Of a stretch of DNA of 64,000 nucleotides, positions 732 to 62,910 are shown piece after piece. The notes beneath the pieces are model-generated. The model was given only the letters and a program-made list of their open reading frames with translations, made no database searches and was not told where the DNA came from. A program made the translations under genes and the position numbers. Source of the DNA: Apium graveolens (Eukaryota; Streptophyta; Magnoliopsida; Apiales; Apiaceae); the NCBI RefSeq assembly GCF_009905375.1, contig NC_133648.1, forward strand, positions 29,171,552-29,235,551. Reading direction: 5' to 3'. Each line of letters opens with the position of its first letter. The first letter of the stretch is position 1.

Positions 732-1766
732 TGTTAGTCCCTAACAGTACAACACGAATTACACGGGGGGGGGGGGCTGGATGTAATTCTGGCTACTTTT
801 TGAGATTAATTAAAAGTGGTTCTAACTTAACAATATATAAGTGTTTGATTTGCAAAATGCGAAATGAAGAGTTAGATAAATCAAAACACAAGTAATTAAA
901 AACACAAGTCTTTAAAAACTTTCTGGTGGATTTGAATGTATCCACCATATATATATATATATATAAAGACCCATGTGAAGCTTGAATAGCTCACAGCTGC
1001 TTACAAATATGAACAACTAAACTTACAGAGAAATGCTACATGATACAGCTTACAATTGTTTCTCTGAGAATGTATTTGCTTAGTCTTCTCGTTGTTCTAC
1101 TTGCTACTCTTGGTTTATATATCACCAAGATTACATAGTAATAAGACAAGATAATAAAACAAAATCTATCAAGTCTAATACCATGCTGCTTCACTACTCT
1201 ATTCCAGCATCTTTGAATATCTTCATAATAGCATGGAAATGGTAATGCTTCTTTGTTCTCAAAAACCCAGTTGAATAGGATGCCACATTCCTTTTGCAAA
1301 CACTCGACGCATGTGACTGTGTTGTCACTGTCAACAGATGTTTGAATTGATCATTCGTCGGGTACATGATTATTATCCGTCGGGTTGCCTTGTTGATCAT
1401 CCGTCAGTAGCTTTGTTGATCATCCGTCGAGTAGCTATTTGACACTTGACTTCATTTTACTTATGCAGAATTACAAGACATCTTATATTTACAATTAATC
1501 AGCCTATTCTACATATCTAATTAAAGTCAACATGATTTATATGCTACTACAGAATCTATACAAAGGTGTTTGCAGAAATGTGCTAAATGACTTATTATTA
1601 CATAAGCTACTCACTCGATGGATGTCAAATCATCATCCGTCGGGACTATATTGAGTCATCCGTCGGGACTATATTTGGTTATCCATCGAGTGCTACATTT
1701 CACTAAATTGAATCTACTAAGGTGTTTTGTTAATGAAATCATCAAGTTGACAACATATTCCCAACA
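732..1766 (-). repeat. 3' LTR of element A
   Basis: This pairs with 12718-13768 along its whole length. It begins with TGTTAGTCC and ends CCCAACA on the plus strand. It contains a poly-G run near 765-775, a TA microsatellite near 947-965, and clusters of the word ATCCGTCG and its variants at about 1350-1430 and 1615-1690, in both orientations. Scattered substitutions and small indels relative to the partner LTR indicate an older insertion than element B. Confidence 0.9.
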
Positions 1767-1784
1767 ATCTCCCCCAATTTATGT
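1767..1784 (-). other. Polypurine tract of element A
   Basis: Directly inside the 3' LTR the minus strand reads AAATTGGGGGAGATTG, a purine run in the place expected for plus-strand priming. The same GGGGGAGATTG core abuts the 3' LTRs of B, C and D in this window. Confidence 0.8.
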
Positions 1785-3627
1785 CTACTAGAATTATAAC
1801 CATAAATTAAGAGAAACTTGATGATAACAAAACACTCTAAAAATACAGATTTAAAGAGTAGTTGATAAAACTGAAAAGTGTTGCATGATTTCCTGAAAAA
1901 TTTACAAGACAAAGTGTACAAAGATTTGCTCACAATTTTTTAAGGTGCTCCTCTAGTCTGAGCAGATTGATCTATTTCTTTGATTATCTGGATTTCTTCC
2001 CAAGTTTCCTATTATTTTCTTCTATCTGATTTCGGAGCTGTCTGTGGAATTCAAGTTCATCAGATTCTGAAAGATCCAGCATTCCTTGCATTTCCAGAAG
2101 AGTCTCATTGCTAGAGATGCTCAACTGGTCCTCTAATCTGAAGAATCTTCTAACTCCCTTATCATCCATGAATTCCATCAGCCAGTAGGGCCTTAGATGC
2201 ACTCTACTCCCTGTGTAAGGAATAGTTAAGGTCTTTGGGAGTGCATCTTTGGCTCTAATACTCCCCAGTTCTTCAATCTTCTTTAGAAATAGTCTTCAAG
2301 TTGTCACATTGAATCCAAAGTTCTTCTTGAAGGATGAATAAACTTTTATCAGTACAGATTGGCTCTCTTGAAGAATCCTGTGAAGTGGCCATGATATCTC
2401 TTTTCCTTCCTTGTACTTGATACTAACCTTTCAGGTAGATTCATGTAAGCATCAATCCGTCTAACTTCTTCCAATTCATCTATCTAAAGGTTTAGTTCAG
2501 ATAATTCCTTGATGTCACAGATGTACATGATATCTCCCTTGTTGATCTTGGTTTGAGATTTGGTTAGGGACTTGGATCTGAGAGTTGAGGGTTTCACTTT
2601 CTTGACTGCTCTGGTCTTTGTCTTCTTTGGCTTCATGAAATGAGGTAGATTGAGTTCAGGAATTGGTAGACTATCCCAGTCTATTGGCTCATCCTTTGGA
2701 ATGATAGGTTCACCATGGAAATTCTTGGATGAATCTATCTTGAATTCTTCATGTGCCACAGAAGGCATGGATGTTTGAGTTGTTGCAGAAGTAGACTTTT
2801 TGGGAAAATGATCTTCCAATTCCTTTTCATCAAAGTTCACTTTTCTCTTTCCATGAAGTTTGTATCTAAACCTTTTTGTCTGCTGTGATTCTTCTTGCAT
2901 TTTCAGATCCTTAGATCCAGTGGTTTCAGATGATTGTTCAGGAATTTGTTGTGTAGGTTTCACAGCTTGCAGCTTGGCCAAGATAGCAGCTTGCTCCTTC
3001 CTTTGTTTGAGTTTTTTAGCATCTAGAGCAGTTTGCTTCTTTTCTTGCTTCAATCTTGCCTTTTCTTCCCTTTTTTCTTTAGAAAATTGAGGGTGTCCAG
3101 CCACCACACAAATTTCCTTACCATTTCTGAAAACCTTGGCAATTCTCCTTTTCAATGCTGAATCAGCTGGATCCTTGTAGAATGCAATAGATCTTGACAA
3201 TATTTTTCTTCTCATCAGGCTTTGGTGTCTCATACACTGTGTCCAAAGGATTCTTTAGTGAAGATTTTGGATAGTTCACCTTTGGCTTCATGATTAGATC
3301 TGCCTTTGGAGATTTGATGCAGGATGTTTGGCCTCTTTCCACATTGTTCATGCTCATATCATTCACAGAAATTTTCCTGATTTGAGAATGATGAATGGCT
3401 GATTTTTCTGGCTCCTTTGCTAGACCAAACTTCTTTTGAATATCCTCATCAATTTTCTCCCAGTTTATTGGCCTAAACTGCTTCTTCTCAGTTGCTCTTA
3501 AAGTGGCTGCTACTTCATTGATCAAATCAATTCTATTCTTAGCTGGTGGCTTTGTGAAAGTAATTGTAGGCACAATTACTTTGCTAACTTGAATGTTGAG
3601 CTGTTTCTCCCCCTCACTTGAGCCTTT

Positions 3628-3650
3628 CTACCCCTTTTTGTTATCATCAA
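3628..3650 (-). other. Degenerate internal polypurine tract in ORF3 of A
   Basis: The minus strand reads GATGATAACAAAAAGGGGTAG. Compared with B and C, the core GGGGGAG has become GGGGTAG. A second GGGGGAG lies nearby at about 3607-3613. Confidence 0.6.
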
Positions 3651-4734
3651 GTTGTATGGGAGGGAGTCGAGCAGCCACCAACTGTTGGAGTAGAGCAGTC
3701 TGAGTTTCTTGATTGGTAAGTATCTTGGCCATTGACTTCTCTACAGCAGATAATCTTGAGTCCATGACCTCAACTTTCCTATTGAGATTAGCCTCCTTCC
3801 TTAGCTTTTGAACTATTTCAGTCATGGTGGTTGCAGGAAGTCTAGCATCCAACCTTGCTATGACATCTTGTTTTACTTCAGAAATTTCTTGCTTGATTTC
3901 ATCCACACTCTGACTGTGTTGGAGAGCTTGAATTTTATACAGCTGGAGTGCTTCAAGGTGTGCTGTAAGTAGCTTCTTTGTGATGGCATTAGAAGATGCC
4001 TGAATGGCTGCTTGGGTGTCATGAATTAGCTTGAATAGTGTTGATTGGAGATGTGAGTAGGAACATTCTTTTGTTAGCATCCAGGTAGGAACATCTGCAT
4101 CTTCCCCTATGCTCATGCTATCTTCCTCATCATCTCCACCAGCATCCCCAAAAGAATTTTCATCCAGTTCAAAATCACTGCCAATGGTAGAAGGCATAGC
4201 AGTGATTGCATCATTTGCTCTCTGTAAAGATTGTATAGTATGCACCAAGTTTATTATTCTTTCAGCCTCCTTATTGCCCTGTAGAGCTAGAGTTTGGTAA
4301 ACTGTAACAGGGTGAGTAAATATCTCATTATCAAGGGAAATAGAATCTATAACAACTTGATATTCTTGCTGAAATAGCCTTTTCCTTTCTGCATCATTGA
4401 CATTCATTGACTCACTTGCAATGGTTTCCATCATTATCACTCCTGTACCTGCATTTCTATCATGATCTCTCTTTTCTTGCATCAAGGTCTCACCTTGGCT
4501 CCCCACCCTCATACCCTCACCTTCACCATCTAAGGTGGGACTCCTCACACTCACTTTTGCCAGTCCTGAAGAAATGGACTGCATTGGATCATCACTCTTT
4601 TTCTCTCCTTTTTCCTGGAAGCAACCCAGACTCTCACTCAAGTCACTACCTTCCCTCAATCCTAATAGTGATTGCACAATTACTAAGTCATCTGCACTTG
4701 TGACTATAGATGAACTTTGGAGTTGTGCAGAGAC

Positions 4735-4856
4735 ACCCGACGGATGAGAAATATCCATCGGGGTAGTAATTTGGCTAACCGACGGATGACTGCTATTAGG
4801 CACATCCGTCGGGATACAATCACTACTCGACGGATGAAAAATATCCATCGAGTGAG
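4735..4856. repeat. CGACGGAT word cluster inside ORF3 of A
   Basis: Several copies alternate in orientation, for example CCGACGGATGAG followed by ATATCCATCGGGG, and CTCGACGGATGAA followed by ATATCCATCGAG. The pairs can form short hairpins. They lie in a Ser/Pro-rich, probably disordered part of the protein. Confidence 0.8.
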
Positions 4857-6600
4857 TAGAAATAAATGAGTTTAGAGTGGAGACTATTGTGGACTCTATG
4901 CAGATTGAGGAGAATTTTGGCACAGATGTCTCAACAGTCTCAGAAAGAAATGGCAAGTGAGCCAACAAATCATCTAGAAGATGATGCTCACTTGCATGGA
5001 TTTTTGGCTTCTCCAACAAAGTTAAAGATGGAGAATATGTTTGTGATGTTTGAATCATGTCAACATCCAAAAATTGTGTGGGAGAATTTGGTATTTGAGG
5101 TGTTTCAATTTGTACAGATTTTGGCTGTGACTCCACATTTATTGAAGCCACATCAATTTGACTTTGAGATGGTGCTGTGACTGGGTCTTTAGCTCCAATT
5201 TGCACTGTATGTGTACCCTGTGCATCCCCAAGGGTTTTGGATTTCTTCTTTCTTGTGTAGGTTTGTTGTGAACTTGTGTCCCTACCCCTCTTGGCATGTG
5301 CTCTTGGCTGAGAGCTTGTTTCAATGGTAACATCCTTTTGGGAGGATGAAACCAGTAATGAGCTAATGTCCTTATTAAGCACTGCAGTTTGTTGAGAAAC
5401 TGCAGTGTGGCTAGGCTGAGAAAACTAACCTCTCCAACCTTATCCTTAGGGCTTCTTTGATTTTCACCCTGTCCCTCATCAGTCTTTCCCACCTTCACAC
5501 TCCCCTCTTTGTGTTTACTGGATTTTACAACTGGCATCTTTTTAGAGACACCAGAGGAGGCTTTCTTTGTCTTTGATTTTGAAACTTTGGATTTGGTAGC
5601 TTGGGTAGGCATCTGTCTGGTCATTGACACAGATGCCACTGCTACACTAGAAGGCAAAGAAATGATTGAGGTTGGAAGAGTAGAGACAGTTGAGATTAAC
5701 TCACTTACCTGAGGTGCCTCAATTACTGGAAAGTAGAAGAGTGGCACCTCTTTGTGGTGGTTTGCTCTGTTTAAATCTGCAATAATTCTTCTTTCTTGAA
5801 CCCAACAATCTAACTTGTTGGTTGGGTTCTCAAGCACAATGTCCTCAGAGAGGTGGTTAGCAAGCATCATGAAAAATCTAGCATAATAAACATTCTTACC
5901 CCTCTTATTAAGCTCCCCTAACTTAAACCCCAACTCAAATAAGACTAGATCACTAAAGTTGAAGAATTTATCAGCATGTAAAGCATGTTGAGCATGAAGA
6001 TATTAACTGAATCAAAATTGCTAATTTTACCAGAAAATACTTTAGTAACTACATCACACAGATAACTTCATTCCTTCCTAAGACCCAACCTCCTAATTTC
6101 ACTAAATTTAGAAGTAGAGAGTGTATAACCCATGGAATTAAGCATATTAACAATGTCAGTGTCTATGTGTGGAGAAGTTACAGTATTATCAGGAAACTTG
6201 AAGCATGCTTTAACAATATCACTATTAACACATAATTCCTTACCTTTAATCGTGAACGTGATGGTCTTGTCGGTTGAGTTGTACACTGTAGTTGTCCACA
6301 TTTCTTCAACAACCTCACAGTAAATGGTGGGTGATTCCAGCATGGCATAATTGAGTTTGCAGTTCTTCACAAAATCCATCATTTTGTGGTAATCGCTAGA
6401 TTGTTGAATCCTCTTGTTCACTAGAGCCGTGAAATTGTTCTTCTCATAGATAAAACCAGTTTGAGACATGATTTTGACGACTGGTGCCATTGTTAGAGAG
6501 TAAGAACTTGTAGAGAGAGAGAGTAATTGCTTTTGAGAAAGAGAGAAGTTAGAGCAGATGAATTGAGAGTGATAAAAGAAAAGTAATGAAAATGAATTTT

Positions 6601-6616
6601 GCTTTTATACTCTCTC
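6601..6616 (-). promoter_or_regulatory. Probable internal promoter TATA box for ORF3 (A)
   Basis: The minus strand reads GAGAGAGTATAAAAGC, about 115 bases upstream of the ORF3 ATG at 6490. A near-identical box lies at nearly the same distance in B (26771-26790) and G (62641-62660), inside an otherwise poorly conserved spacer. Confidence 0.5.
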
Positions 6617-6710
6617 AAAAATAACTGTAAAAAATAGTAAAGTAAAATAAAGTGACCAATAAAAATTGCCCAAAATAGCCGTTTAAAAATTAAATGTAAA
6701 AATTCCATTA

Positions 6711-6925
6711 CTTATCCGTCGTGTTATGCTTACAAACTGTAAGTATACCCGGTGGATAATGTTCAGAAAATCAACGACTAAGAATGAGACAATTCGACGG
6801 ATGAGGATAAATCAGTTATCCGTTGAGATATAAAATATTCCAGAAAAATAATTGATTTTCTTGACAAATTGTATATCGACGGATGATCGAACTTGATGGA
6901 TAATGATCATCCGTCGGGATGTAAA
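6711..6925. repeat. CGACGGAT word cluster in the pol-ORF3 spacer of A
   Basis: Copies and one-base variants of ATCCGTCG and CGACGGAT occur in both orientations, for example at 6714-6722, 6792-6800 and 6908-6918. This region is non-coding. The equivalent spacer of B carries the CAACGGAT variant. Confidence 0.75.
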
Positions 6926-7011
6926 TTTTGACTTAGCCAAAATTTCATCCAAGACTAAAAAATTAATTAAATTTCTGGCTGCATTACAACTTGCAAAATA
7001 TCTGAAAAGAT

Positions 7012-10000
7012 TCAAGAGTAATTAAGCATACCTAACTCACTTACCAACCTTGAAAAGGTGGATTCATCCAGTGGCTTGGTAAATATATCTGCAAGTTATT
7101 TTTCACTTGGAACAAAATGTAGTTCCACAGTACCATTCATCACATGTTCCCTTATGAAGTGGTACTTGATGTTTATGTGCTTTGTTCTTGAATGATGTAC
7201 TGGATTTAAATGATGGAAATTGCACTTGTGTTATCACAGAAAATAAGAATTCTTTCCACTTGCAGACCATAGTCTAGCAATTGGTTTTTCATCCACAAAA
7301 TTTATGCACAGCAACTGCCAGCAACAATATATTCAGCTTCAGCTGTAGAAGTAAAAACTGAATTTTGCTTTTTACTGAACAAGACACAAGCTTGTTTCCT
7401 AGAAATTGACAGGTTCCTGTTGTACTTTTTCTATCAATTCTACAACCTGCATAATCTGCATCTGAATAACCAGTTAGATCAAAACCAGAATCTCTAGGGT
7501 ACAAATGCCAAGTTTTGGTGTTCCCTTGAGATATCTGAAAATTCTCTTAATAACTATTAAGTGAGATTCTCTAGGATCGGCCTGAAATCTAGCACAAAGA
7601 CATGTAGCAAATATTATATCTGGCTTACTAGCTGTTAAGTACAGAAGTGAGCCAACCATGCCCCTATAACTTGAAATATCCACAGACTTTTCAGTGGTGT
7701 TTAATTCAAGCTTAGTTGCAGTGGCCATGGGAGTTTTTGCAGATGTGCAATCCATTAGATCAAACCTCTTTAAAAGATCATGAATGTATTTAGTTTGACT
7801 AATGAATATTCCATCACTAACTTTCTTAACTTGTAAACCAAGAAAGTAAGTCAGTTCTCCCATCATGCTCATTTCATACTTACTTTGCATCAATTTGGCA
7901 AACTTTTTGCAAACTTTTTCATCTGTAAAGCCAAAAATAATGTCATCTACATAAATTTGAACAAGTATGCTAGAGCCATTAACATTTTTAAAGAATAAAG
8001 TTTTGTCTACACTACCTCTAATGAAGTGATTCTCTAAAAGAAACTTTGACAAAGTGTCATACCAGGCTCTAGGTGCTTGCTTCAATCCATAAAGTGCTTT
8101 CAAAAGATAGTATACATGATCAGGTAGATTTGGATCTTCAAAAACAGGAGGCTGACTGACATAGACTCCCTCCTCCAAATCTTCATTTAGAAAGGCGCTC
8201 TTGACATCCATTTGATAGACCTTGAAATTGGCATGGGCTGCATAGGCTAAGAAGATTCTGATGGCTTCAAGTCTTGCAACAGGAGCAAAGGTTTCATCAA
8301 AATCTATTCCTTCTTGTTGACAATAGCCCTTAGCAACCAATCTAGCTTTGTTCCTGACTACTATGCCATTTTCATCCATCTTGTTTCTGAATACCCATTT
8401 GGTGTCTATAGGATTCTTCCCTTTAGGCTTGGGTACCAGCTTCCAAACATTGTTCCTTTCAAATTGGTTTAGCTCCTCCCGCATAGCTAAAATCCAATCA
8501 GGATCCAACAAAGCTTCTTCTACCTTCTTTGGTTCTTCCTTAGAGAGGAAGCTGCTATATAGACATTCTTCTTGAGTTATTCTCCTGGTTTAAACTCTAG
8601 AAGATACATCACCAATGATGAGCTCAAAGGGGTGATCCTTTGTCCATTTCCTTTGTTGAGGTAGATTAGCTCTAGATGAAGAGGCCTCATTGTTGCCTTG
8701 ATGTGTGATTGAGTTTTGATTATTGGAAACTCCCCCTGAGTTTGTGAATCTTTGATTTGAGAGAGGGGAATTTTCTGTAAGTGATCTATTTTGACTTTCA
8801 TCTTCTTTTGATGACCCAACGGATAGTGAATTTTAAGTTCCGACGGATGAAGCTGATTGTCTCGATGGATGATGCAGATTGTCTACCGACGGATGAGGCA
8901 TTTTGTAACTCGATGGATGGTGAGTTATTAGCTTCATTGGTTGTAGATTTTTCTGCACTATCCTTATTAGTAGTTTCTTGATCACTTTCATCATCACTGT
9001 CATCACTAACCATCTCCACATTGTCAAAGTTGAGGCTCTCATGGTAATCTCCATCTTGCAGTCCTTCAATCTTTTTATCATCAAACACATGTATTGATTC
9101 CATAACAAAGTTGGTTCTCAGATTGTAGACTCTTTATGCTTTACCAACATCATATCCAACAAAAATTCCTTCATTTGCTTTAGCATCAAACTTCTCATTC
9201 TGATCAGTTTGATTTCTCAAGATATAATATTTACAGCCAAAGACATGAAGAAAGTTTAGAGTTGGCTTCTTGTTCTTGAACAATTGGTAGGAAGTCATGC
9301 ATTTTTCCTGATTAACCAAAGAAATATTCTGAGTGTAGCATGCAATATTTACAGCTTCAGCCCAGAAATATGTTGGTAACTTTGATTCTTCAAGCATTGT
9401 CCTTGCAGCTTCAATAAGTGATCTGTTCTTTCTTTCTACTACTCCATTTTGTTGTGGAGTTCTTGCTGCTGAAAACTCATGCATAATCCCATTCTCTTCA
9501 CAAAATACTCTCATAACAGAATTCTTGAACTCATTTCCATTGTCACTTCTGATTCTTCTAACTTTGAAATCAGGATGATTGTTGACTTGCCTTATGTGAT
9601 TGATGATGATTTCACTAGCCTCATCTTTAGACTTTAGGAAATATGTCCAAGAGAACTTTGAGAAATCATCTACAATTACCAGGAAAAATCTTTTCCTTGA
9701 GATGGACAACACATTGACTGGTCCAAACAAATCCATGTGTAGCAATTGCAAAGGTTCTTCAATTGTTGAATCAAGCTTCTTTCTGAATGATGCTTTGATT
9801 TGTTTTCCCTTTTGGCAAGCATCACACAGTCCATCCTTAAAAAACTCCACTTGAGGAATACCTCTAACCAGTTCTTTCTTTACAAGCTCATTCATGGTCT
9901 TGAAGTTTAAATGGGATAGCTTCTTGTGCCATAACCACTTTGTTGTTCCTCTTCTTTGTCACAACACAGGCTTTTGTAGTGAAGGTTACTGAATTGCCTT

Positions 10001-10244
10001 TATCACAAAGCTGGCTGATACTCAACAAATTGTGTTTGAGACCATCCACTAAGGCAACCTCCTCAATGATGACATTGTCTTTTGAAATCAAGCCATATCC
10101 CACAGTATAACCCTTGCTGTCATCTCCAAAAGTAATACTTGGGCCAGCTCTTTCCTTGAACTCTGTGAGCAGGGTAGAATCTCCAGTCATGTGTCTTGAA
10201 CAACCACTATCCAAGTACCACAGATTCTTTCTGTTTCCTTGCAC
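7012..10244 (-). pseudogene. pol: Copia pol polyprotein of A, broken
   Basis: This is a polyprotein with protease, integrase, reverse transcriptase and RNase H, all of Copia order. The protease motif [11 protein letters not shown] lies at the start (9888-10244). Integrase is at 9134-9895 with [21 protein letters not shown] and [13 protein letters not shown] is at 7474-8511 with AFLNE and YVDDIIFG. RNase H is at 7289-7504 and onward with YSDADYAGC. Frameshifts separate these blocks. The RNase H region has a TAA where related copies have a Gln codon (CA-TAA-ILW), and element G shares that stop. The IN-RT linker (8820-8925) carries CGACGGAT words. Confidence 0.9.
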
Positions 10245-10258
10245 ACATTAAAATCAAA

Positions 10259-12657
10259 TCAATTTGATTTTGGTACCCAAGTTTCCTTGGATCCTGCCTT
10301 GTTAGATTTCTTCTTTTGTTTCTTAGGTTTGATCTCATTTGACTTGGGGATTTCAGATTCATCCTTAGTCATCTGAGTTTGACCTTTGAAACCATTCATT
10401 AAACAGAATTATCATGCACATTTTGATTAACAGGGAATGGCATGCTATTTGCAAACATGTTATTCCAGTAGGGCATGCTAAATGGCATTTGGGGCATATT
10501 AAATGCAGCATAATAAGGATTAGGTGCAAATGGCATATTAGCAAATTGTGCATTCATATTATGTGTAGTCATAACTTTCAAAGGCATAGAAGGCATAACA
10601 CTCATGTTGGGAAAAGAAAGTGGTGCAGTCATGGAAGTAGTCATGGCAAGTTTGCAATTAACAGACAGATGATTGACACTACTACACTTAACACAAATTT
10701 TTCTAGGAACATACTTATCAGGTGTGTAGTTGTTATGTTTGTTAATCCCTATTTTCCCATTTCTATTGTTTTTCTTTTTAGCCTCTGTTTTAACCTCAAT
10801 CTTTTCTAGTCTGTCATTCAATTGCTTGTTGGACAGATGACCAACATTCACTTTCTTCTCCTTCTTCACTTGACTAGATTCACCTGAAATAAAGTTTTTA
10901 GAAACTGATCCATATTTTTCATTTAACTTGGCAAGTTTGGCTTTACTCACAGGTTTGCTCACAGCCGACGGATGATGATTTATGTCACTCGATGGATAAC
11001 CTTTTTGATTATCCGACGAATAACCCTCATCATCCGTCGAGTCTACATCTGTTAGCAATCCTTCAACCAAATTGGATTCTAGCTTCTCTTTACTCTTTTT
11101 TTAGGCTACATCACAGAAGGACTCAATACCTTGAACTTTGGTGATTTGAGCATGGACATCTCTAGATGATTTCCATGCCTTAATCACCTCCTATTCACGA
11201 TCAAGCTTCTTCTTCAAAATTTCTTCTTTCTTCAAGGACTCAGTTAATTCATCCTTAGCAATCTTACATTCTATTCTCAATTTTTCAAATTCAATAAACT
11301 GAGACTCTAGCACATTATTCTTCTCACTTAAAAACAAATTGTTTTATTTGATTTTAGCATTTTCCTTAGTGAGGGACTTAAGTGTAACACGCAAATGATA
11401 TAATTCTGTAGACATGTCATTTATTGCATCATTACACTCAGCTTTAGATAAATGTGCAAGGTTAGTGGTGATTACCTGATTACTTAAAGAACTTGTCTCT
11501 GTTTCATCAGACTTGGCCATTAGGGCTAGATTTACATAGATGACACCTTCTTCTTCATCTAGACCATCTGCTGCCCAATCATTTTCTTGTGTAATAAAAG
11601 CCCTTTCCTTTTGTTTGAGCAACTCAAAATACTTCTGTTTATAATCCACAGGCTCAAACTTTTTCTTGCTGGAATCTAACTTTCTACACTCACTGGCAAA
11701 GTGCCCTGCCAAGCCACATTTAAAACATTTGAATTTTGATTTATCCACAATGTTTCTATTTGGCTTAGCTGCTCCAAAGTTCTTCTTCAACTTGAGCTTG
11801 GCAAATCTTCTGGAAAGAAATGCAAGATGTTCATCAATATCATCCATATCATCTTGGCTCAAAGAATCTTCATTTTCTGCTACCATCCCCTTGCCCTTGT
11901 TTTTACAGACCTTTGAAGTAGACTCAACAACTTCTATCTTTATCTCCTTCTCTTTCTCTAACTCAGTAACCAGTGCAATGGGCCCTCCTTTCTTTCTCCC
12001 TTTCCCCATTCTTTCATCTTGCTCTATTTCAAGCTCATAAGTCTTTAGAATGCCATACAGTCTCTATAGTGTAAACTCCTTGTATTCTTGTGAATTTCTC
12101 AAGGAGACTGTCATTGATTTCCATTCTTTTGGAAGGGATCTCAGGAATTTGAGGTTAGAGTCTTTGGTTTGGTAGACTCTTCCATGCAACTTCAGAGCAT
12201 TTAGTACCTTTTGAAATCTACTAAAGATATCAGTGAGAGTTTCACATTCTTCATAGTGGCAATGCTCATATTGCTGAATCAGTAACTGTATCTTGGTTTC
12301 TCTAATTTGTTCAGTGCCATCACAGATTATTTGAATGGTGTCCCAAACCTCCTTGGCTATCTTGCAATTGATGATGTTGTCAAACATGTCACCATCAACT
12401 CCATTGAATAAAATATTCATGGCCTTCTTGTCTTTCCTGACTTGTTCAATATCGGGATCTGACCATTCATGCCTTGGCTTGGGAACTGATGGCTCATTTC
12501 CAGTTCTAGCTCTCATTGGTACATGAGGACCTCTCTCTATGCAATCCACGTAGGCCTCATCTTGAGAAAGTAAATGAAAATGCATCTTTACCTTCCAGTG
12601 ATGGTAATTATCTTTGTCCAGAAAAGGAATCTTGACTCCAACATCCTTCTTGTTCAT
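10259..12657 (-). pseudogene. gag: Copia gag of A, broken
   Basis: The gene starts at the ATG at 12657 (MNKKDVGVKIPFLDKDNYHHW). It aligns with the intact gag of B (30561-32975) but is split by stops and frameshifts into 12064-12657, 11344-12009 and 10399-11070. It keeps the first CCHC knuckle (CFKCGLAGHFASEC) and the second (CVKCSSVNHLSVNC). A cluster of CGACGGAT words lies at 10965-11045 within the coding region. The expected end (WVPKSN then TGA) is at 10259. Confidence 0.88.
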
Positions 12658-12703
12658 CTTGCTGTTTGTTGTGATCTTTAAACTCTTTGTGCTTCAAGAG
12701 CTT

Positions 12704-12715
12704 GCTCTGATACCA
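12704..12715 (-). other. Primer-binding site of A (initiator Met-tRNA)
   Basis: TGGTATCAGAGC on the minus strand, two bases inside the 5' LTR. This is the standard plant Copia match to the 3' end of initiator tRNA-Met. Confidence 0.9.
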
Positions 12716-12717
12716 AT

Positions 12718-12928
12718 TGTTAGTCCCTAACAATACAACAAGAATTACAGAAGGGGGGGGGCTGAATGTAATTCTGGCTACTTTTTGAGATTAATTAAAA
12801 ATGGTTCTAACTTAACAATATATAAGTGTTTGATTTGTAAAATGCGGAATGAAGAGTTAGATAAATAAACACAAGTAATTAAAAACACAAATCTTAAAAA
12901 CTTTCTGGTGGATTTGAATGTATCCACC

Positions 12929-12964
<36 letters not shown>

Positions 12965-13768
12965 AGAGAACCCTGTGAAGCTTGAATAGCTCATACCTGC
13001 TTACAAATATGAACAACTAAACTTACAGAGAAATGCTACAGGATACAGCTTACAATTGTTTCTCTGAGAATGTATTTACTTAGTCTTCTCGTTGTTCTAC
13101 TTGCTACTCTTGGTTTATATATCACCAAGATTACATAGTAATAAGACAAGATAATAAAACAAAACCTATCAAGTCTAATACCATGCTACTTCACTACTCT
13201 ATTCCAGCATCTTTGAATATCTTCATAATAGTATGAAAATGGTAATGCTTTTTTGTTCTCAAAAACCCAGTTGAATAGGCTGCCACATTCCTTTTGCAAA
13301 CACTCGACGCATGTGACTGTGTTGTCACTATCAACAGATGTTTGAATTGATCATCCATCGGGTACATGATTATTATCCGTCGGGTTGCCTTGTTGATCAT
13401 CTGTCGGTAGCTTTGTTGATCATCCGTCGGGTAGCTATTTGACACTTGACTTCATTTCACTTATGCATAATTACAAGACATCTTATATTTACAATTAATC
13501 AGCCTATTATGCATATCTAATTAAAGTCAACATGACTTATATGCTACTATAGAATCTATGCAAAGGTGTTTGCAGTAATGTGCTACATGACTTATTGTTA
13601 CATAAGCTACTTACTCGATGGATGTCAAATCATCATCCTTCAGGACTATATTGAGTCATCCGTCGGGACTATATTTGGTTATCCGTCGAGTGCTACATTT
13701 TTTACTAAATTGAATCTACTAAGGTGTTTTGTTAATTAAATCATCAAGTTCATAACATATTCCCAATA
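12718..13768 (-). repeat. 5' LTR of element A
   Basis: Partner of 732-1766. The terminal CA of the plus strand has become TA (CCCAATA), a C-to-T change. A longer TA microsatellite is present at about 12931-12962. ATCCGTCG words occur at about 13350-13432 and 13613-13690. Confidence 0.9.
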
Positions 13769-18005: not shown

Positions 18006-19047
18006 TGTTGTGTATATGTTGTGTACTTGATGATTTCATGAATAAAACACCTTAGTAGATTTTACTTAGTGAAATAATGTAGCACTCGACGTAAGATTTA
18101 TAGTCCCGACGGATGATTCATTATAGTCCGATGGATGATGACTTATTATCCATCGAGTGAGTAGCTTATGTAACAATATGTCTGTAGCACATTTCTGCAT
18201 TCACCATTGTTTAGATTATGTAAGTAGTATTCAAGTCATGTTAACTTTAACTAGATATGCAGAATAGGTTGATTAATTGTACATAGACGATGTCTTGTAA
18301 TTCTGCATAAATGAAATGAAGTCAAGTGCCCGTTTACTACCTGACGGATAACCTACAATGTAGTCAACGGATGATCAAATAGACAACCTGACGGATGATC
18401 AATAACTCGACGGATGATCATGAACCCGACGGATAAAGAATTTAAATATCTGTTGACAGTGACAACACAGTCACATGCGTCGAGTGGATGCAAATGGAAT
18501 ATGGTAGCCTATTCAACTGGGTTTTCGAGAACAAAGAAGCATTGCCATTTCCATGCTATTATGAAGATATTCAAAGATGCTGGAATAGAGTAATGAAGTA
18601 GCATTGTAATAGATTAGATAGTTTTTGTTTTATTATCTTGTCTTATTACTTTGTAATCTTGGTGATATATAAACCAAGTAGTAGCAACTAAGACTATCGA
18701 TCTAAGCAAGAAAGCAGAAAAACATTTGTAAGCAGGATTCTTAGAATTTCTCTGTAGTCTTAGAAGTTTAATAGTTGGAAGCAGCTGTGAGCATTTCTGC
18801 ACACAGAGTTCTCTCGATATATAATATATATCTCTGGTGGAATCATTCAAATCCACCAGAAAGTTTTTAAAGACTCTTGTTTTTAATTACTTGTTTTTTG
18901 ATTCACTTAAGTTTTTATTCCGCCGTGTGCTAATCAATACACCTATATTTATATTTGAGTTAGAACCTTTTTATTTCAAGAAAAAATTTCAAGAATTCCA
19001 TTCAACCCCCCTTCTGTAATTCTTGTCATATTGTTAAGGGACTAACA
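18006..19047 (+). repeat. 5' LTR of element C
   Basis: It runs TGTTGTGTATATG to GGGACTAACA and pairs with 50593-51636. CGACGGAT words lie at about 18085-18160 and 18345-18445. One copy in this LTR (18087-18096) has lost its GGA relative to the 3' LTR. Confidence 0.9.
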
Positions 19048-20965: not shown

Positions 20966-21971
20966 TGTTATTCCTAGTGGACTAACAATGAGATTTACAG
21001 AAGGGGGGTTGAATGTAAATCTCAAAACTTTTTCAAGTTTTGAGCAGTTTATGAAAGTTGTGTGTTCAAGAAGAACAAGTGTGTGAATTGCTTTAAGCTA
21101 ATACAGACAGATATATATTCAAGCACAAATGTAAAGAACACAACAGACCTTAAAAACTTTTCTGGTGGATTTGTTGTTCCACCAGAGATGGTATTTTAGA
21201 AAATCTGTGATTAAACAATGTTTATCACAGCTGCATCCTAGTACAAACTAGATGAATTTTCTCTCAATATTTTCTAAACAGCTCTGGAAAATCTCTCATC
21301 TAATTACTAGCTTCTACTTGGTTTATATATTACCAAGTGTACAGTGAAGAACAATATAAAATACAGTAATAAAATAAGATCTTCACTTGCTTCTTTTCCT
21401 GTTCACTCCAGTACTTTGTTGACTATTGCATCTTTGTACTAGAGAAGAACGGCTGCTTTTTCTGTTGTTCCTGAAATTCGGCTACCACATCTCAGTTGTC
21501 TCTATCAACCCATGTGCCTCTGTTTGTAGGTACAACTACCCCTTATCAACGGCTAATCATCAGAACATCCGTTGAAGCTTTCATCCGTTGATGCACTCAT
21601 CCGTTGAAGGATGTTATCCGTTGATGACTTTATCCGTTGAAGCTTTAGAGACATCCGTTGAAGCTTAGCTTCTCATCCGTTGATACCACTTCACTTATAC
21701 AAAATTACAAGGCATGAAGTATTTACAATTGGCCTTCCTATCTGCATATCATCTAGTAGTCAACATGACTCATAGTTTCTCTCAACTTCCAAGAATTACA
21801 TTTTAAATACAGAGACTGAAATATGCTACAACACTAGACTTATTTCTAAGTAAAGCTACACCATCAACGGATAGCCAAAGTGGTCTTATCCGTTGAGGCT
21901 ACAGACACTAAATTTCTACTTAAGTATTTTGTTAAACATATCATCAAACTAATGCACATACATTCCTAACA
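20966..21971 (-). repeat. 3' LTR of element B
   Basis: 1006 bp, TGTTATTCC to ATTCCTAACA on the plus strand. It contains an array of ATCCGTTGA words at about 21545-21690 and an inverted pair at 21870-21900. It is 24 bp shorter than the 5' LTR: one 22-bp unit between two ATCCGTTGA copies is missing, plus two single-base indels. Confidence 0.95.
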
Positions 21972-41435: not shown

Positions 41436-41510
41436 AACCACTTCACATCAGCCTTCCCATCAAATCTTTTATCACAAACTCACCTTCATACTCTTTCTAT
41501 CAAAAACACC

Positions 41511-41780
41511 ATGGTCAATTACAACATATTTTTGAACTATGAAACATTCAACGTGGAGCTGAGCTGTGCTGATTGGCAGCAGGAATGGCACGTTACTGCC
41601 ATTCCTGATGAGATATGGGACTCCGTTCCCCAGGAGGTACTCATCCACCTCCTGTTCTTCTACATGGACTACCATCGCCATCTGGAGCAATTGGAGGAGG
41701 AAAGGCTGGAAGCTCTCCGCCAGCAAGAGCGAATCATACGACTCGCTATTCTGTTTGTCGAGAGTAGGAAGAAGAAATGA
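41511..41780 (+). CDS. Small ORF (89 aa) in the D spacer, unknown
   Basis: The ATG is in the good context AACACCATGG. The protein starts MVNYNIFLNYETFNVELSC, contains DEIWDSVPQEVLIHLLFFYM and ends in a charged helix with EEERLEALRQQER and RKKK. It is rich in Glu, Leu and Arg and probably all-helical. I recognise no domain. It lies between pol and ORF3 with its own TATA box, so it may be an accessory gene of D or a captured host fragment. Confidence 0.5.
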   Translation: MVNYNIFLNYETFNVELSCADWQQEWHVTAIPDEIWDSVPQEVLIHLLFFYMDYHRHLEQLEEERLEALRQQERIIRLAILFVESRKKK

Positions 41781-45500: not shown

Positions 45501-46191
45501 CGGAAAGGAAGCAAGAGATAAAACTGGATTGGGAAGTGCTGATGAAAGAAGAATACAGAACACTACCAATGATCCAACTTCCTTGAGTGAACCAGGTATT
45601 GGAGCAACTCTTGAGAGATTGAATCAACTGGAATCTGTACAAATGGTTTACCATACCTACTTGTAAGAACACATCTTGTTGTACTTCATGACAGATGGTA
45701 GGGTTTATCATATAAGGCAAAATGCCATTCCTTTGAAGTATTTTGAAGAATTGGAGCATGTACTATTCTTACTTCAAGTGGATGACAGATTGACAGGAAG
45801 TGCTGCAAACTATTTGAAGGATCAGATTCTGAGACAGAAAAGGCTTTATTATGTTAAGTCTGACAGCACATATGTTCCAAAGTACAGAGATCACAAGGGT
45901 GATATAGTTGAAATGAAGCCCAACACTGCTAAAATTATAACTACCTTTCTGGGTTACAGGGTTGTGGAATTCAATCTTGAGTCTGATAAAGCTTATTTGA
46001 TCAGACTGGATCAGGATATAAGAAAAGCAAAGATTAATGATCTCAGGGCTGCAATCTTTCAAATTGGTGAAGATAATGCAGAGCTTAAAGATGCTAAAAG
46101 GAGAATGATTGATGAACTTAGATATGCTGAGAAATGTTTGTTGAAGAACTATCTCAGAACAACTCCTGACATCAGAGAGATCAGAAGATGA
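42503..46191 (+). pseudogene. ORF3 of element D, broken
   Basis: It starts MAPKDLIIDGAKFVPNNYAA. Residues 1-245 share with B's ORF3 the patterns IRREWSFFFDCITKAF, SNFDAI and NVVYFARFCQL. The middle is Ser/Thr/Pro-rich and carries GTTCTGAT words. A coiled coil (IEKTQEKQQAQIDDILTNQ) precedes the internal polypurine tract. The frame has a TAA at 43238-43240 and shifts by one base at that tract: the stop at 44801-44803 ends one frame, while the other reads on as KKGEK and matches B and C. Further stops are at 45226-45228 and 45664-45666. The C-terminal part (45676-46191) resembles the end of B's ORF3 only loosely. Function unknown. Confidence 0.78.
44780..44800 (+). other. Internal polypurine tract in ORF3 of D
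   Basis: GATGCAAAAAGGGGGAGAAAG, against GATAACAAAAAGGGGGAG in B and C. One base fewer before the A run explains the frame change here. Confidence 0.6.
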
Positions 46192-46378
46192 AGCCAAGTC
46201 AAGATCTACAACTGCTTAAATTCTGATATTTGTACAAACTGAAGCTGTTATCAGAAGTTAAATATTGGTAAAGCTTTAAGGACTGTAAGTTGTAGTTATC
46301 TAGTCTAATTCTCATGCATTTGTACTTAATGTTTTTGACATCATCAAATATCTGTTAAACTTGTATATTATGCTAATT

Positions 46379-46395
46379 TACAAGTTGGGGGAGAT
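46379..46395 (+). other. Polypurine tract of element D
   Basis: ACAAGTTGGGGGAGAT adjoining the LTR start at 46396. Confidence 0.8.
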
Positions 46396-46987
46396 TGTTA
46401 GATCTATTTGATAATGTCATGGCTAATGTGATTTATGTTTAGTTTTCAGATCTTACTTAAACAGGATAAATCAGTACTTACTGGAAGTCAGGACTTAAGG
46501 ATATCAGTACTTAAATTATCAGGAGATAATCATCAGAAGATGGATATCAGAACTTAAGTGCTGAAGGACGTTCAGATAAGGACAGTAGCTGATTAAAGGA
46601 AAGAAGATCGAGATAAACATAAGAAGAGATATGCATGGAGAAGGAATTCTATGAAGAATAGAATACTTGGAAGAAAAGATATCTGATTGATATATTTTAG
46701 GAAGCAGAATTATATTCCATATCAATTAGCGATTATCTTGTAACTGTGTAGTATATAAACACAGACATAGGGTTTACACTATAAGTGTTATCATATTCGA
46801 GAAGATTATTCATTGTAATCCTAGTAGCTCTCGTGATAATTATTCATCACTGAGAGGTAACAGTTCCATACTGTAACAGAGTTTATTGTTTCAATAAAGT
46901 TTGTTTTATGTTACTTGAGATATTAAAGTTCGATTTGATTGTACTTTACACTGTATTCACCCCCTCTACAGTGTGTGTGACCTAACA
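46396..46987 (+). repeat. 3' LTR of element D
   Basis: 592 bp from TGTTAGATCTATTTG to GTGACCTAACA. The first third carries TATCAGTACTTAA, ATCAGAAG and TATCAGAACTTAAG, the reverse complements of the D word. TATAC after it would be one target-duplication copy. The other is not in the window. Confidence 0.85.
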
Positions 46988-47921
46988 TATACCACTAAAA
47001 ACAAGGGCAAACTTATAATCTACTAATTCCATTTTATGCTCATTGTCCCTTTTCTTTTTACTCAAATGCAATAAAATTTAAATATAAAATATATCTCTCT
47101 CGGGAAGTCAAGAATTATTGAAAATGACGATTTTAATACGTAGATCTCGAAATTAGCTTTTTAACCATTACTCATAATAGATTTTTGAGCAGACGGTTGA
47201 TTTTATATGAATTTCGCAAGCTCGCTCTAATAATAACATTTTCCAAATAAAATCAATTTAAAAATGCAAAGCCCATCAAATAAATCCACTCATCATTTTT
47301 AAAATGTCTCTGGGACTACTAAGAAGATATCATAACAAATCCCATGTTTTTATCTTACTCGGATGTTTTTATAAAAATGCGCGAAGGTTAATTAAATCTT
47401 TATTTAAATCACATAATCCCTTTAAAATTCATAAAAATTATCACAGAACATATAGCCATGCACACAGACAACAATCTCACATATATAATCATATAACGAC
47501 TCAGGTCTGATCATAGAATTTATCCCTCTTTAATCTTTTATCCTTTTCTACGCGTACCGGGTCACGTTCAGCCTGACGGCCCGACGCTCAGCATTTCGAT
47601 TACGCTTCTCATTATCATTATCAATCAACACGTCACTTAGGACGAAATACTTTATTTAAACATTCATTTCATTCAGTCACACATAATTTACATTTTATAT
47701 TCTTTAACTCCTTATTAGGACGGGTTCCGTTCTACCTGACGGCCCGACACCACATCTTAACTTCTAAGCTGACTCTTTAAATTGGAACATTTTTATCCAC
47801 GCTCCTATACTCTAATATACAGAAAAGATAATTAATCAGCACTTAGTCACATAATTATAATCACATCACATAACACATACTTTATTGACTTAATTACGTC
47901 AAAAAATTCTCAGTCGTCACA
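46988..47921 (-). repeat. Chromovirus-like LTR fragment E, reversed
   Basis: Read on the minus strand from 47921 it opens TGTGACGACTGAGAATTTTT, a typical start of plant Tekay/Del-type LTRs (recalled). It contains GCCGTCAGG words twice. It is cut at 46988 by element D. There is no coding capacity, and the rest of E is absent. Confidence 0.6.
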
Positions 47922-50402
47922 TATGTCATTGCTAGTGAGTCAATGAATGTCCAGGATGCAGACAGGGAAGGACTATCTTAGCATCCTAAAGCTGTTATAG
48001 ATTACACTTCCCTTGATGCTGAGCCATTTACTCACCTTGTTCCAGCTTATCAACTTCTAGCTGAACAGGGCAATGACAATGCAGAAAGGATGCTGAATTT
48101 GGTGCATACCACTCAGTCTATAATGAGAGCTAAGGATGCCATCACAGCTTTGCCTTCTACAGCTGGTGATGTGGACTATGAGACTGGTGGTTCAGCTGAT
48201 TTCTTTGGAGATGGGAGTGGGGATAGTGAAGATGAAGCAATGGACATAGGGGGAGAAGTAGGCTCAAGTTCAAGGTCAGGTATGCCATCATGGGCATTCT
48301 CAAAGCACTGTAATGAGCATTACTTCAAGACAACCCTGATCCAATTAATCAATCAGACAAATACCGCTCTTCAAACCACTACCAATGCCAGCACCAAGAA
48401 GCTCCTTCAGGCACATCTAGCCTCCATGCAACTTCAACAAATCCAGGGCTTCCAGCATGCTAGAGATGTGAATACTATGAAGAATGATATTGAGGAGATG
48501 AAAAAGGCTATTTCAGAGAGGATAGATTCTAAACTTCCAGAAGCTACAATGCTTGACATCAAGAGGCAATTAAGGAAAAAATTTGATCTGTCAACCAAGA
48601 TAGATGCCTTGGACACAAGAATGCCAGCCATGGAAGCATCTTTAACTGCCATTCATCTCCATCAAGCCCAATAGACTGATCTACTTCAAAAACTGGTGGC
48701 TGCTCAAACCCCATCCTCTACTCAAATTGATGATAACAAAAAGGGGGAGAAAGGATCAAGTGAGGGGAAGAGGCTTCAGATTCAAATTAGTAAAGTAATT
48801 GTACCTTCAATTACTATCTCAAAGCCATCAGTTACAGACAGTATAGATCTGATCAATGCAGCAGCAGCCAACTTAAGAGCAGCTGATAAGGAAAAGTTGA
48901 GTTTAGTCAACTGGGAGAAGATTGATGAGGAAATACAGAAGAAGTTTGAACTTGTCAAGGAGCCAATTAAGTCAGCCATCCATCACTCTCAAGTCAAGCA
49001 AATTAGTGTGAATGAGATGAGCATGAATTATCTGGAAAGAGGACAACCTTCCTGCATCAAATCTCCAAAGGCTGAAACAATTCTGAAACCAAGGGTAAAC
49101 TACTCAAAATCATCATTGAAGAACCCTTTGGACACTGTGTATGAGACACCTAAGCCTGATGAGAAGAAGCTTCTGTCAAGGTCAATTGCTTTATACAAAG
49201 ATCCAGCTGATTCAGCTTCCAAAAGGAGAATTTCCAAGATTTTCAAAAATGGGAAAGAAATTTGTGTGGTGGCTGGACATCCTCAATTTGCTCAAGCAAA
49301 GAGAGAAGAAAAGGCTAGATTGAAGTAGGAAAAGAAGCAAGCTGCTCTGGATGCTAAAAAGACTAAATAAAAGAAAGAGCAGATTGCTATCTTGGCCAAG
49401 CTGCATGCTGTAAATTCATTACAACAAATTCCTTTTCAACCATCTGAAGCTATTGAATCAAAGAAGCAAGTTAAACAACAGAAGAAATCTCCAAGAAAGA
49501 AGGAATTGGCTAAAAGAACTAAAAGGAAACTGGATATTGTTGACAAAGAATTGGAAGATCAATTTCCTAAGGAATCCACACCATCTACAACCCAAGCGTC
49601 AAAGCCCTCTGTGGTATTTGAAGATATCAGGGTGGTGGATCCTTACAGGAATATTCATGGTGAACCTATTGTGCCCAAGGATGAGCCAATAGAATGGGAG
49701 AACATACCAATTCCTGACTTCAACCTACCAATCCTTAGGAAGCCAAAGAGAACAAAGTCAAGAGCAGTCAAGAAAGTGAAGATGTCACCTCTCAAATCCA
49801 AGTCTCAAGTCAAAGCTCAATCTAAAGTCAGTAAGGGAGACTATCTGTACTTGTGTGACATCAAAGAATTTTCTGATTTAAACCTCTATCTGGATGAACT
49901 AGATGAAGTGAGAGGAATTGATGCATACAGAAACCTACCTGAAAGGTTAGTGTTCAAGTACAAAGGAGGAAAGGAGATTCAATGGCCTCTTCACAGGATC
50001 CTTCAAGAGAGCCAAGCTGTACTGATTAAAGTTTATTCATCCTTCAAGAAGAACTTTGGGTTCAACATTACTGCAAGAAGACTGGTATTGAAGAAGATTG
50101 AAGAACTAAGGAGTGTTAAAGCTAAAGATGCACTCCCAAAGACTGTAATCATCCCTTACACAGGGAGAAGAGTGCATCTAAGGCCCTACTGGCTAATGGA
50201 GTTCATAGATGACAAAGGTGTGAGAAGATTCTTCAGATTAGATGACCAGTTAAGCATCTCTAGCAATGAGACTCTTTTGGAAATGCAAGGAAAGCTAAAT
50301 CTCTCAGAATCTGATGAACTGGAATTCCACAGGCAGCTCCAAAATCAGATTGAGGAAAATAATAGAAAGCTTGGAAAGAGATCCAGACCTTCAAGAAACT
50401 AG
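47922..50402 (+). pseudogene. ORF3 of element C, second half, broken by stops
   Basis: It begins within the middle region (SESMNVQDADREG). One reading frame is maintained but interrupted by TAG at 48672-48674, TAG at 49326-49328 and TAA at 49368-49370, each where relatives have Gln. An earlier TAG lies near 47980. It contains the coiled coil, DDNKKGEK over the internal polypurine tract (48729-48750), a Lys-rich stretch, and the conserved C-terminal domain with YLDELDEVRGIDAYRNLPER and DDKGVRRFFRLDDQL. It is closest to A's ORF3. Confidence 0.85.
48729..48750 (+). other. Internal polypurine tract in ORF3 of C
   Basis: GATGATAACAAAAAGGGGGA, identical to that of B despite differing surroundings. 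Confidence 0.6.
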
Positions 50403-50592
50403 ACAAATCTGCTCGGGCTAGAGGAGCATCTTGAAAAATTACTGTGAGCAAAACTTTGTACATTTCTGTTATTTGAAGCACTTTTTAGTAATATCTACTT
50501 TCTCTTAAAGTTATATTCTTAGGGTGTTTTGTTATCATCAAGTATCTCTTAATTTATGGCTACAATTCCAGTAGACATAAATTGGGGGAGAT
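50403..50592 (+). other. 3' untranslated stretch and polypurine tract of C
   Basis: A short non-coding stretch ending in AAATTGGGGGAGAT, next to the 3' LTR. Confidence 0.75.
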
Positions 50593-51636
50593 TGTTGTGT
50601 ATATGTTGTGTACTTGATGATTTCATGAACAAAATACCTTAGTAGATTTTACTTAGTGAAATAATGTAGCACTCGACGGATAAGATTTATAGTCCCGACG
50701 GATGACTCATTGTAGTCCCGACGGATGATGACTTATTATCCATCGAGTGAGTAGCTTATGTAACAATAAGTCTGTAGCACATTTATGTATTCACCATTAT
50801 TTAGATTCTGTAAGTAGTATTCAAGTCATGTTGACTTTAACTAGATATGCAGAATAGGTTGATTAATTGTACATAGATGATGTCTTGTAATTATGCATAA
50901 ATGAAATGAAGTCAAGTGCCAGTTTGTTACCCGACGGATAACCTACAATATAGTCGACGGATGATCAAATAGACAACCCGACGGATGATCAATAACTCGA
51001 CGGATGATCATGAATCCGACGGATAAAGAATTCAAATATCTGTTGATAGTGACAACACAGTAACATGCGTCGAGTGGATGCAAATGGAATGTGGTAGCCT
51101 ATTCAACTGGGTTTTCGAGAACAAAGAAACATTGCCATTTCCATGCTATTATGAAGATATTCAAAGATGCTGGAATAGAGTAATGAAGTAGAATTGTAAT
51201 AGATTAGATAGTTTTTGTTTTATTATCTTATTTTATTACTTTGTAATCTTGGTGATATATAACCCAAGTAGTAGCAACTAAGACTATCGATCTAAGCAAG
51301 AAAGCAGAGAAACATTTGTAAGCAGGATTCTTAGCATTTCTCTATAGTCTTAGAAGTTGAATTGTTGTAAGCAGCTGTGAGCATTTCTACACACAGAGTT
51401 CACTCGATATATAATATATATCTCTGGTGGAATCATTCAAATCCACCAGAATGTTTTTAAAGACTCTTGTTTTTAATTACTTGTGTTTTGATTCACTTAA
51501 GTTTTTATTCCGCAGTGTGCTAATCAATACACTTATATTTATATTTGAGTTAGAACCTTTTATTTCAAGAAAAAGTTTCAAGAATTCCATTCAACCCCCC
51601 TTCTGTAATTCTTGTCATATTGTTAAGGGACTAACA
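50593..51636 (+). repeat. 3' LTR of element C
   Basis: 1044 bp, partner of 18006-19047. CGACGGAT words lie at 50675-50745 and 50930-51030 and are better preserved than in the 5' LTR. Confidence 0.92.
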
Positions 51637-62085: not shown

Positions 62086-62537
62086 ACTTTAATAAAAGAA
62101 TCACATAGAAAGCTCCATTCTTTTCTGAAGCCTAATCTTCTAATCTCACCTAACTTGGTGGCAATAAGAGCATAACTCATAGAAATAAGCATGTTACTCA
62201 CATCAGTGTCTGTGTGTAGAGCAAGAGTGTTATTTTCAGGCAATTTAAAGTATTTTTCAATAGGATCATAGTTAATACGGTGTTCCTTACCTTTGAGAGT
62301 GAAGGTAATGGTTTTATCCTTGGAGTTGAGCACAGCAGTAGTCCAAACCTCCTCAACAACCTCACAGTAGATGATTGGAGACTCAAGCATTGCATAACTC
62401 AGTTTACAACATTGAATGAAGTCCATCATTTTGTGATAGTCTTCAGATGCAGGAATTTGCTTGTTCACCAAAGCTACGAAGTTGTTCTTTTCATAGACAT
62501 ACCCAGTTTGAGACATGATTTTGACTACTGGTGTCAT
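62086..62537 (-). pseudogene. ORF3 of G, N-terminal fragment
   Basis: The ATG at 62537 opens MTPVVKIMSQTGYVYEKNNF. It runs through LRKEWSF-type text (FRKEWSFLCDSFIKV) to the hAT insertion. Confidence 0.85.
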
Positions 62538-62640
62538 TACTGTGATTGAAAGCAGTTGCAGAAAGGGGATGTTTGCTTTGGAGATGAAGAGAGTTAGATA
62601 AATTGCTTGAGAAAGATAAAAGTAAAAATAAAAATTAAAT

Positions 62641-62660
62641 AGGATTTTATACTTTCTCAA
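62641..62660 (-). promoter_or_regulatory. Probable internal promoter TATA box for ORF3 (G)
   Basis: Minus strand TTGAGAAAGTATAAAATCCT, about 110 bases before the ORF3 ATG at 62537. Third instance of the conserved box. Confidence 0.5.
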
Positions 62661-62779
62661 AATTAAATGGTTAAAAAGTAAAATCAAAAATAAAGTAACC
62701 AATCAAATTAGCCCAAAATAGCCATTTTAAAAATAAGGAAAACTGTCAAAATTCTAATGCCTAGAATTAACGGCTAAGG

Positions 62780-62910
62780 TTGAGAGAAATTCGACGGATA
62801 AGGATTAAAAGTACCCAGAATAATATTTGATATTCCAACGGATAATGCAATGAAATTCAACGGATATTCATTTTCAACAGATAATGAACATCCATCGAGA
62901 TGTAAATTCT
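62780..62910. repeat. Mixed CGACGGAT / CAACGGAT word cluster in the G spacer
   Basis: TTCGACGGATAAGG (about 62790), CCAACGGATAATG (about 62836), TTCAACGGATATTC (about 62857) and ACATCCATCGAG (about 62889) occur within 120 bases. A/C-type and B-type words thus appear together. Confidence 0.75.

Follow-up and report, generated by a model that had tools for sequence, protein, structure and literature searches.

A family-specific short DNA word dispersed through celery Sirevirus elements, and the ORF3 protein as its possible reader

A stretch of 64,000 nucleotides of celery (Apium graveolens, contig NC_133648.1, positions 29,171,552 to 29,235,551; hereafter the window) contains nested Copia retrotransposons in which a short word recurs in the long terminal repeats (LTRs), in gag, in pol, and in and before a long third open reading frame (ORF3). 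Why is the same word kept in coding and non-coding parts of one element, and why does it differ between related families? We found that the word is constrained as DNA and that it changed in concert at many sites between two elements. We consider that the words may be binding sites for a sequence-specific protein, most likely ORF3 acting through its N-terminal domain (N-domain) in a VANC-like manner, and give this reading a probability of about 0.5.

Word counts and a concerted change in the window

Through tblastn and self-blastn, elements A and B were identified as nearly whole, and B2, C, D and G as pieces (Table 1). Exact words on both strands comprised 32 copies of CGACGGAT followed by A or G (CGACGGATR, the CG word), 56 of CAACGGAT followed by A or G (CAACGGATR, the CA word) and 8 of AAGTTCTGAT, the word of D. 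When all 8-mers were ranked with no word named, ATCCGTCG came top in A (enrichment z 22.4), ATCCGTTG in B (z 34.9) and ATCAGAAC in D, at a weaker z of 8.4. In the C and G fragments (the 3' LTR of C left out) the word was not top of the ranking; most of the cluster-bearing regions of A and B are absent from the C and G pieces in the window. Compared with 100 dinucleotide shuffles, B without its 5' LTR held 30 CA words (shuffle mean 0.02, maximum 1), A without its 5' LTR held 16 CG and 2 CA words (means 0 and 0.04), and D held 8 words (mean 0.06, maximum 1). Three tested window stretches outside the elements contained no word.

A sequence-only reading of this DNA had described the word as recurring within each element and in both orientations, and both points held when exact words were mapped and compared with the shuffles, which give almost none in A, B and D. 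Its word for D also held; the signal is weaker but recurs in both D copies fetched from the genome. Its assignment of the CG word to A, C and G was right for A and C, apart from two CA words in A and one in C; it failed for G, whose three exact words, all in the spacer between pol and ORF3, are one CG and two CA.

Six clusters were found in B (offsets 77, 2722, 4953, 6929, 9053 and 12172). They lie, as had been described, in both LTRs, gag, the linker between integrase and reverse transcriptase (IN-RT linker), the pol-ORF3 spacer and ORF3, and A has six at nearly the same places. The peptide readings were likewise recovered, with SVD/SVE and STD in pol, and YPL/HPL and STD in gag and ORF3. The coding words of B number 4 in gag, 5 in pol and 6 in ORF3, and each count was reached by none of 1000 synonymous-codon shuffles; therefore the protein alone fails to explain the words. 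This supports a constraint at the DNA level, as the sequence-only reading had supposed.

A and B were aligned over gag, linker, spacer and ORF3, in windows picked around the clusters and with the words themselves helping to anchor the alignment, and 19 of the 21 B words aligned gap-free. At 13 of these 19 sites A differs from B by the same A-to-G change at word position 3; two others read as CA words in A, and at the last four A has lost the word. The change is present at all six ORF3 sites; in A two of these carry CGATGGAT, which is the form left by CpG decay. The flanks of the aligned sites are 50-68% identical, and the like-changed sites are kilobases apart, in differing reading frames and orientations. 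Such a concerted change at scattered sites points to a trans-acting reader, because a change in the reader would select for it.

Word classes in the genome and their ORF3 lineages

Counting close word pairs in the 3.33-Gb genome, we found at least 76,113 CA-CA and 54,466 CG-CG pairs, while the reversed patterns gave 6 and 1. Mixed pairs numbered 15,320 and 14,720 (odds ratio 18.4), a fraction of at most 18.7%; the CA-CA count used a gap of 5-9 and the others 5-14, so that the true CA-CA number may be higher and the true mixed fraction lower.

Twenty-three loci were fetched by place, and five of them (L068, L071, L080, L081 and L082; nested, partial or without full ORF3) were dropped from the copy table. 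Nine further CA copies contained 242 CA words and 1 CG word, and seven further CG copies 94 CG and 8 CA words. These copies were chosen by the class of their LTR pair, so the words inside the element are the test: in 12 copies the inside words were 138 CA versus 1 CG, and 44 CG versus 3 CA. Clusters occurred in the same regions wherever the fetched stretch covers them, with the exception of L072, which has no spacer cluster. D belongs to a large family, with 71,152 candidates at first look, of which 150 were scored. Two D copies picked for long open frames (1264-codon open ORF3) held 10 and 12 copies of AAGTTCTGAT and no CG or CA word; five lie within ORF3 in each, a count that 0 of 1000 synonymous shuffles reached. 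These observations support the presence of three word classes in this genome, with a separate ORF3 lineage for each.

Between the CG and CA classes, reverse transcriptase is 88% identical and the ORF3 N-domain 59%. D and B are 75% identical in pol and 26% in the N-domain, and their words are quite different. Trees of the ORF3 pieces N, M1, M2a and C and of reverse transcriptase showed one change each between CG and CA copies, and for integrase the nearest relative was of the same class for 18 of 18 copies. The mid-ORF3 piece M2a of three CG copies (L067, L070 and L083) groups with CA copies across a long branch, while their N, M1 and C pieces are CG-like; these ORF3 genes are probably mosaics made by recombination. 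This subfamily is somewhat richer in CA words (7/62 versus 1/40, P 0.14), and M2a could conceivably be a factor in word choice. A foreign C-domain in L073, taken at one time as a domain swap, was dropped because its sister L086 is normal.

The word could also be read through peptides in database gag proteins, as HPL/YPL, HPS/YPS or HQL. Among 61 proteins with the region, 46 had at least two readings and 24 of them were pure, compared with a shuffle mean of 14.1 and maximum of 26, a test diluted by HQL in the B group, which is perhaps unrelated to the word. On a gag tree of 29 rows the labels together needed 11 changes (shuffled mean 15.6; as low in 1 of 200). Words were readable in 6 of 18 aligned ORF3 proteins, all pure (three HPL, two HPS and one HQL); the other 12, all from hogweed, had no readable word. 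The HQL protein is from carrot, and its peptides would imply a further word, TCAACTGAT. One gag protein of the celery-element group (P0047) is filed under Rhizophagus irregularis, possibly a plant contamination of the fungal assembly.

A paired word search returned 5 viral and 52 prokaryote stretches; no pol was found in the viral contigs, and the plasmid search gave none. Sixteen of the 52 prokaryote stretches (L008, L019, L021, L022, L028, L030, L031, L037, L040, L044, L045, L046, L049, L051, L053 and L056) come from the Magnetococcales bin DC0425bin3; their TCAACGGAT-gap-ATCCGTTGA matches are all 23 bp long and may represent a dispersed palindrome belonging to that bin.

The ORF3 protein and other candidate readers

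The ORF3 of B had 33 homologues; the 31 named ones are all from Apiaceae, the best from celery. Its Pfam matches were below cut-off only. PF20167 (Transposase_32) was weakly matched by 3 of the 18 aligned ORF3 proteins (best E 0.013); hhalign with a Transposase_32 protein was negative. The Citrus sinensis protein P0118 combines Copia gag-integrase with a Transposase_32 domain in one fusion. One N-domain, that of B, was modelled, and its top-ranked but weak structural match was VANC21 with DNA. Sequence similarity between VANC and ORF3 was not detected, and a model of the ORF3 C-terminal part gave no convincing structural match. The ORF3 proteins tested contain basic runs of nuclear-signal type, and none of the five has a stretch above the hydropathy threshold. 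An envelope role of ORF3 is therefore judged unlikely, as membrane stretches are lacking.

If ORF3 is the reader, the words would be sites of about 10 bp for a sequence-specific DNA-binding protein that has to cover the whole 13-kb element and not the promoter alone. The protein would bind, through its N-domain, the clusters set every 2-3 kb or so, and would keep the cognate family free of silent chromatin, as VANC does for VANDALs. Word and reader would change together, giving each family a private code. More tentatively, we put forward the wider proposal that the "envelope-like" ORF3 of these Sireviruses does for a retrotransposon what VANC does for VANDALs: it would be a nuclear protein that, through its N-domain, recognises the private word and shields its own family alone from silencing, and word and reader would have co-evolved into separate codes in one genome.

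The sequence-only reading had named ORF3 or a host factor as the reader, and had the word change with ORF3. The DNA-level constraint, the concerted switch, the separate ORF3 lineage of each class, the hydropathy and basic runs and the VANC21 match all speak for this. Other results limit it. The trees of N, M1, M2a, C and reverse transcriptase each separate CG from CA copies in one split, therefore the match of word and ORF3 is not separable from co-inheritance; with few independent switches in hand, the pattern fits co-evolution but would also result from co-inheritance. The rule that a family has a single word holds strongly but with exceptions, given the mixed pairs counted above, and the mixing is real, because in one CG subfamily both LTRs have CA words at set positions. 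At G000:C1:14936769-14948936, for example, CG and CA words alternate at fixed places common to both LTRs.

The words might instead serve host transcription factors as cis-regulatory sites. They would then be ordinary RM boxes of Sireviruses, acting as enhancers in the LTRs and as an internal promoter for ORF3. The B LTR words stand upstream of TATA-like sites at offsets 666 and 879, as published for RM boxes, and the second cluster upstream of ORF3 matches the published layout (PMC2829016). Clusters lie also in gag, the IN-RT linker and mid-ORF3, which speaks against this account. The B word includes AACGG, which we take to be a MYB-type core, and a MYB-site reading was rejected because it fits the B word only. 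The A and D words have no AACGG and the word switches in concert between families of one genome, therefore one constant host factor does not account for all three words. Much less probable is the spread and homogenisation of clusters by mutation alone (tandem duplication, slippage or template switching), with no reader. Several clusters are indeed tandem arrays with periods of about 16-24 bp, and VANC targets likewise grow as tandem repeats (PMC5735166). However, eight CA copies contained 214 exact versus 86 one-off words, compared with 0 and 59 for the reversed word, and sites kilobases apart in different frames and orientations changed alike while their flanks are 50-68% identical.

We give similarly little weight to a role in replication or packaging, as gag or integrase sites, or in RNA structures that also feed small-RNA silencing, as has been proposed for maize Sirevirus LTR palindromes. 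The converging pairs in the B spacer and ORF3 could fold back, and small RNAs are reported on Sirevirus palindromes (Bousios 2016, as cited in PMC10760457). But words are found in either orientation, many of them with no partner or in direct orientation, so double-stranded DNA fits better than RNA, and a purely silencing-attracting sequence should not be conserved in coding regions. A protein reader of DNA, with ORF3 as the leading candidate, stays our preferred reading.

Element anatomy and comparison with known systems

By their polypurine tract (PPT) and primer-binding site (PBS) sequences, the elements are Sireviruses. We make this assignment because both the PPT/attachment site and the PBS junction agree with those published for Sireviruses, and in B the agreement is exact. 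At the 3' LTR of A and C, TGGGGGAG-AT-TG stands in place of AGGGGGAG-AT-TG; the CA-ATTGG-TATCAGAGC junction is exact in A, B and B2, with one change in C. Close to their LTR ends, A, B and C have runs of 6-9 C that, judged by eye, fit the written description of the C-rich integrase signal. Sireviruses have several PPT copies grouped close to the 3' LTR; in B, further copies of the PPT were found at 23777, 24268 and 24659, within ORF3 and 1.8-2.7 kb off the LTR, and one in pol at 28948. A 100-N assembly gap (37271-37370) lies beside B2. A different element, with RVT_1 at 58332-59489, has 57-bp tandem arrays with CTGGATCGT on either side (55317-55589 and 61111-61383).

Table 1. Elements, genes and word clusters in the window
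Feature	Position	Strand	Remarks
Element A	731..13766	-	tblastn and self-blastn; PBS junction
A LTRs	3' LTR 731-1766; 5' LTR 12717-13766	-	tblastn and self-blastn; PBS junction
A genes	ORF3 1999-6490; spacer 6491-7014; pol 7015-10244; gag 10245-12657	-	tblastn; ORF3 frame broken
A cluster, 3' LTR	1374..1665		CG class
A cluster, ORF3	4738..4836		4 exact words; counterparts of all six B sites, two reading CGATGGAT
A cluster, pol-ORF3 spacer	6713..6916
A cluster, pol IN-RT linker	8817..8895
A cluster, gag	10966..11039
A cluster, 5' LTR	13374..13688
Element B	20966..34066	-	3' LTR 20966-21971; spacer 26765-27226; 5' LTR 33037-34066
B ORF3	22160..26764	-	1534 codons open; conserved start Met34 (MAPVVK)
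B ORF3 N-domain	25730..26665	-	312 aa modelled; top PDB match VANC21 with its target DNA
B pol	27227..30547	-	1106 codons; gag_pre-integrs, rve, SH3_retrovirus, RVT_2
B gag	30561..32975	-	804 codons; Retrotran_gag_2, zf-CCHC
B cluster, 3' LTR	21566..21895		CA class
B cluster, ORF3	24902..25014		codons ~584-622; 6 words as three converging pairs
B cluster, pol-ORF3 spacer	27007..27138		6 exact words
B cluster, IN-RT linker	29014..29115		pol codons ~478-512
B cluster, gag	31281..31345		codons ~544-566
B cluster, 5' LTR	33655..33990		offsets 77-404 of 1030
B PPT/attachment site AGGGGGAG-AT-TG	21970-21981	-	at 3' LTR; exact Sirevirus match
5' LTR/PBS junction CA-ATTGG-TATCAGAGC	B 33023..33038	-	also 12704 in A, 38173 in B2
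Element B2 fragment	37371..39265	-	gag start; LTR 38187-39265 with 13 CA words
Element C 5' LTR	18006..19047	+	word cluster; gag start 19109-19183
Element C 3' part	47900..51636	+	ORF3 fragment 47928-50396; 3' LTR 50593-51636 with 8 CG words
Element D	39266..47899	+	pol fragment 39271-40059, then spacer; ORF3 from 42503
Element D words	between 40996 and 46555		AAGTTCTGAT copies
Element G spacer	62643..62993	-	1 CG and 2 CA words
Element G other pieces	ORF3 54311-55200 and 62000-62642; pol from 62994	-

RM boxes are palindromes particular to each element, and almost all of them share a CGG-CCG core. They sit in the upper LTR and ahead of the envelope-like gene, and in Osr10 and HOPIE a few more stand where that gene begins; the authors proposed regulation and did not find a common binding factor (Bousios et al. 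2010, PMC2829016). The celery words resemble them in high copy number, element specificity, CGG core and position. In B the LTR words fall within the upper half (offsets 77-404 of 1030), and a second cluster stands before the envelope-like ORF; in the published elements this second cluster is seen only where the ORF is also present. The clusters in the LTRs and ahead of ORF3 are thus the already known RM boxes, which the sequence-only reading did not mention. Compared with these palindromes, the celery words appear to be half-sites, paired in places only: B has converging pairs in spacer and ORF3, and its LTR words are mostly in direct orientation. RM boxes are described as non-coding apart from the few ORF-start copies, whereas the celery words lie also in gag, pol and mid-ORF3, switch in concert between related families, and in D have no CGG. 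Envelope-like ORFs of the SIRE1 type stand in the same place as ORF3, between pol and the 3' LTR; the five ORF3 proteins tested have basic runs and no stretch above the hydropathy threshold, a result that covers these five.

We found no paper linking RM boxes with VANC in the open-licence literature, to which the search was confined. Relative to it, it seems new that clusters lie in gag, pol and mid-ORF3, that the word switched in concert, and that the N-domain gives a VANC-like fold match. New as well are the dominance of one word in each of the 16 further copies of the CA and CG classes and the third word in two further D copies. PMC2829016 describes the function of plant retroelement envelope-like genes as unproven, and whether additional ORFs of retrotransposons influence methylation is a question that a 2026 paper leaves unanswered (PMC12844716). 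ORF3 as reader would offer a concrete answer that can be put to the test, for which the target sequence is already available. If true, private-code anti-silencing would be shared by DNA transposons and a very abundant group of plant retrotransposons, and it could explain why RM boxes are element-specific and why pre-envelope boxes go with the presence of the ORF.

The VANC/VANDAL system of Arabidopsis is the other comparison. VANDALs are Mutator-like DNA transposons, whereas the elements here are Copia LTR retrotransposons, with Copia gag and pol domains and LTRs; because they are no VANDAL transposons, we do not file the system as VANC. VANC21 binds a nine-base motif in mainly non-coding regions, and its targets are tandem repeats that vary between related elements (PMC5735166); the celery clusters lie inside genes as well. 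The likeness lies in a family-specific motif of 9-10 bp, dispersed and often tandem (PMC5735166, PMC10398659), that diverges between related families, in the extra protein that the element encodes, and in the weak fold match of the B N-domain.

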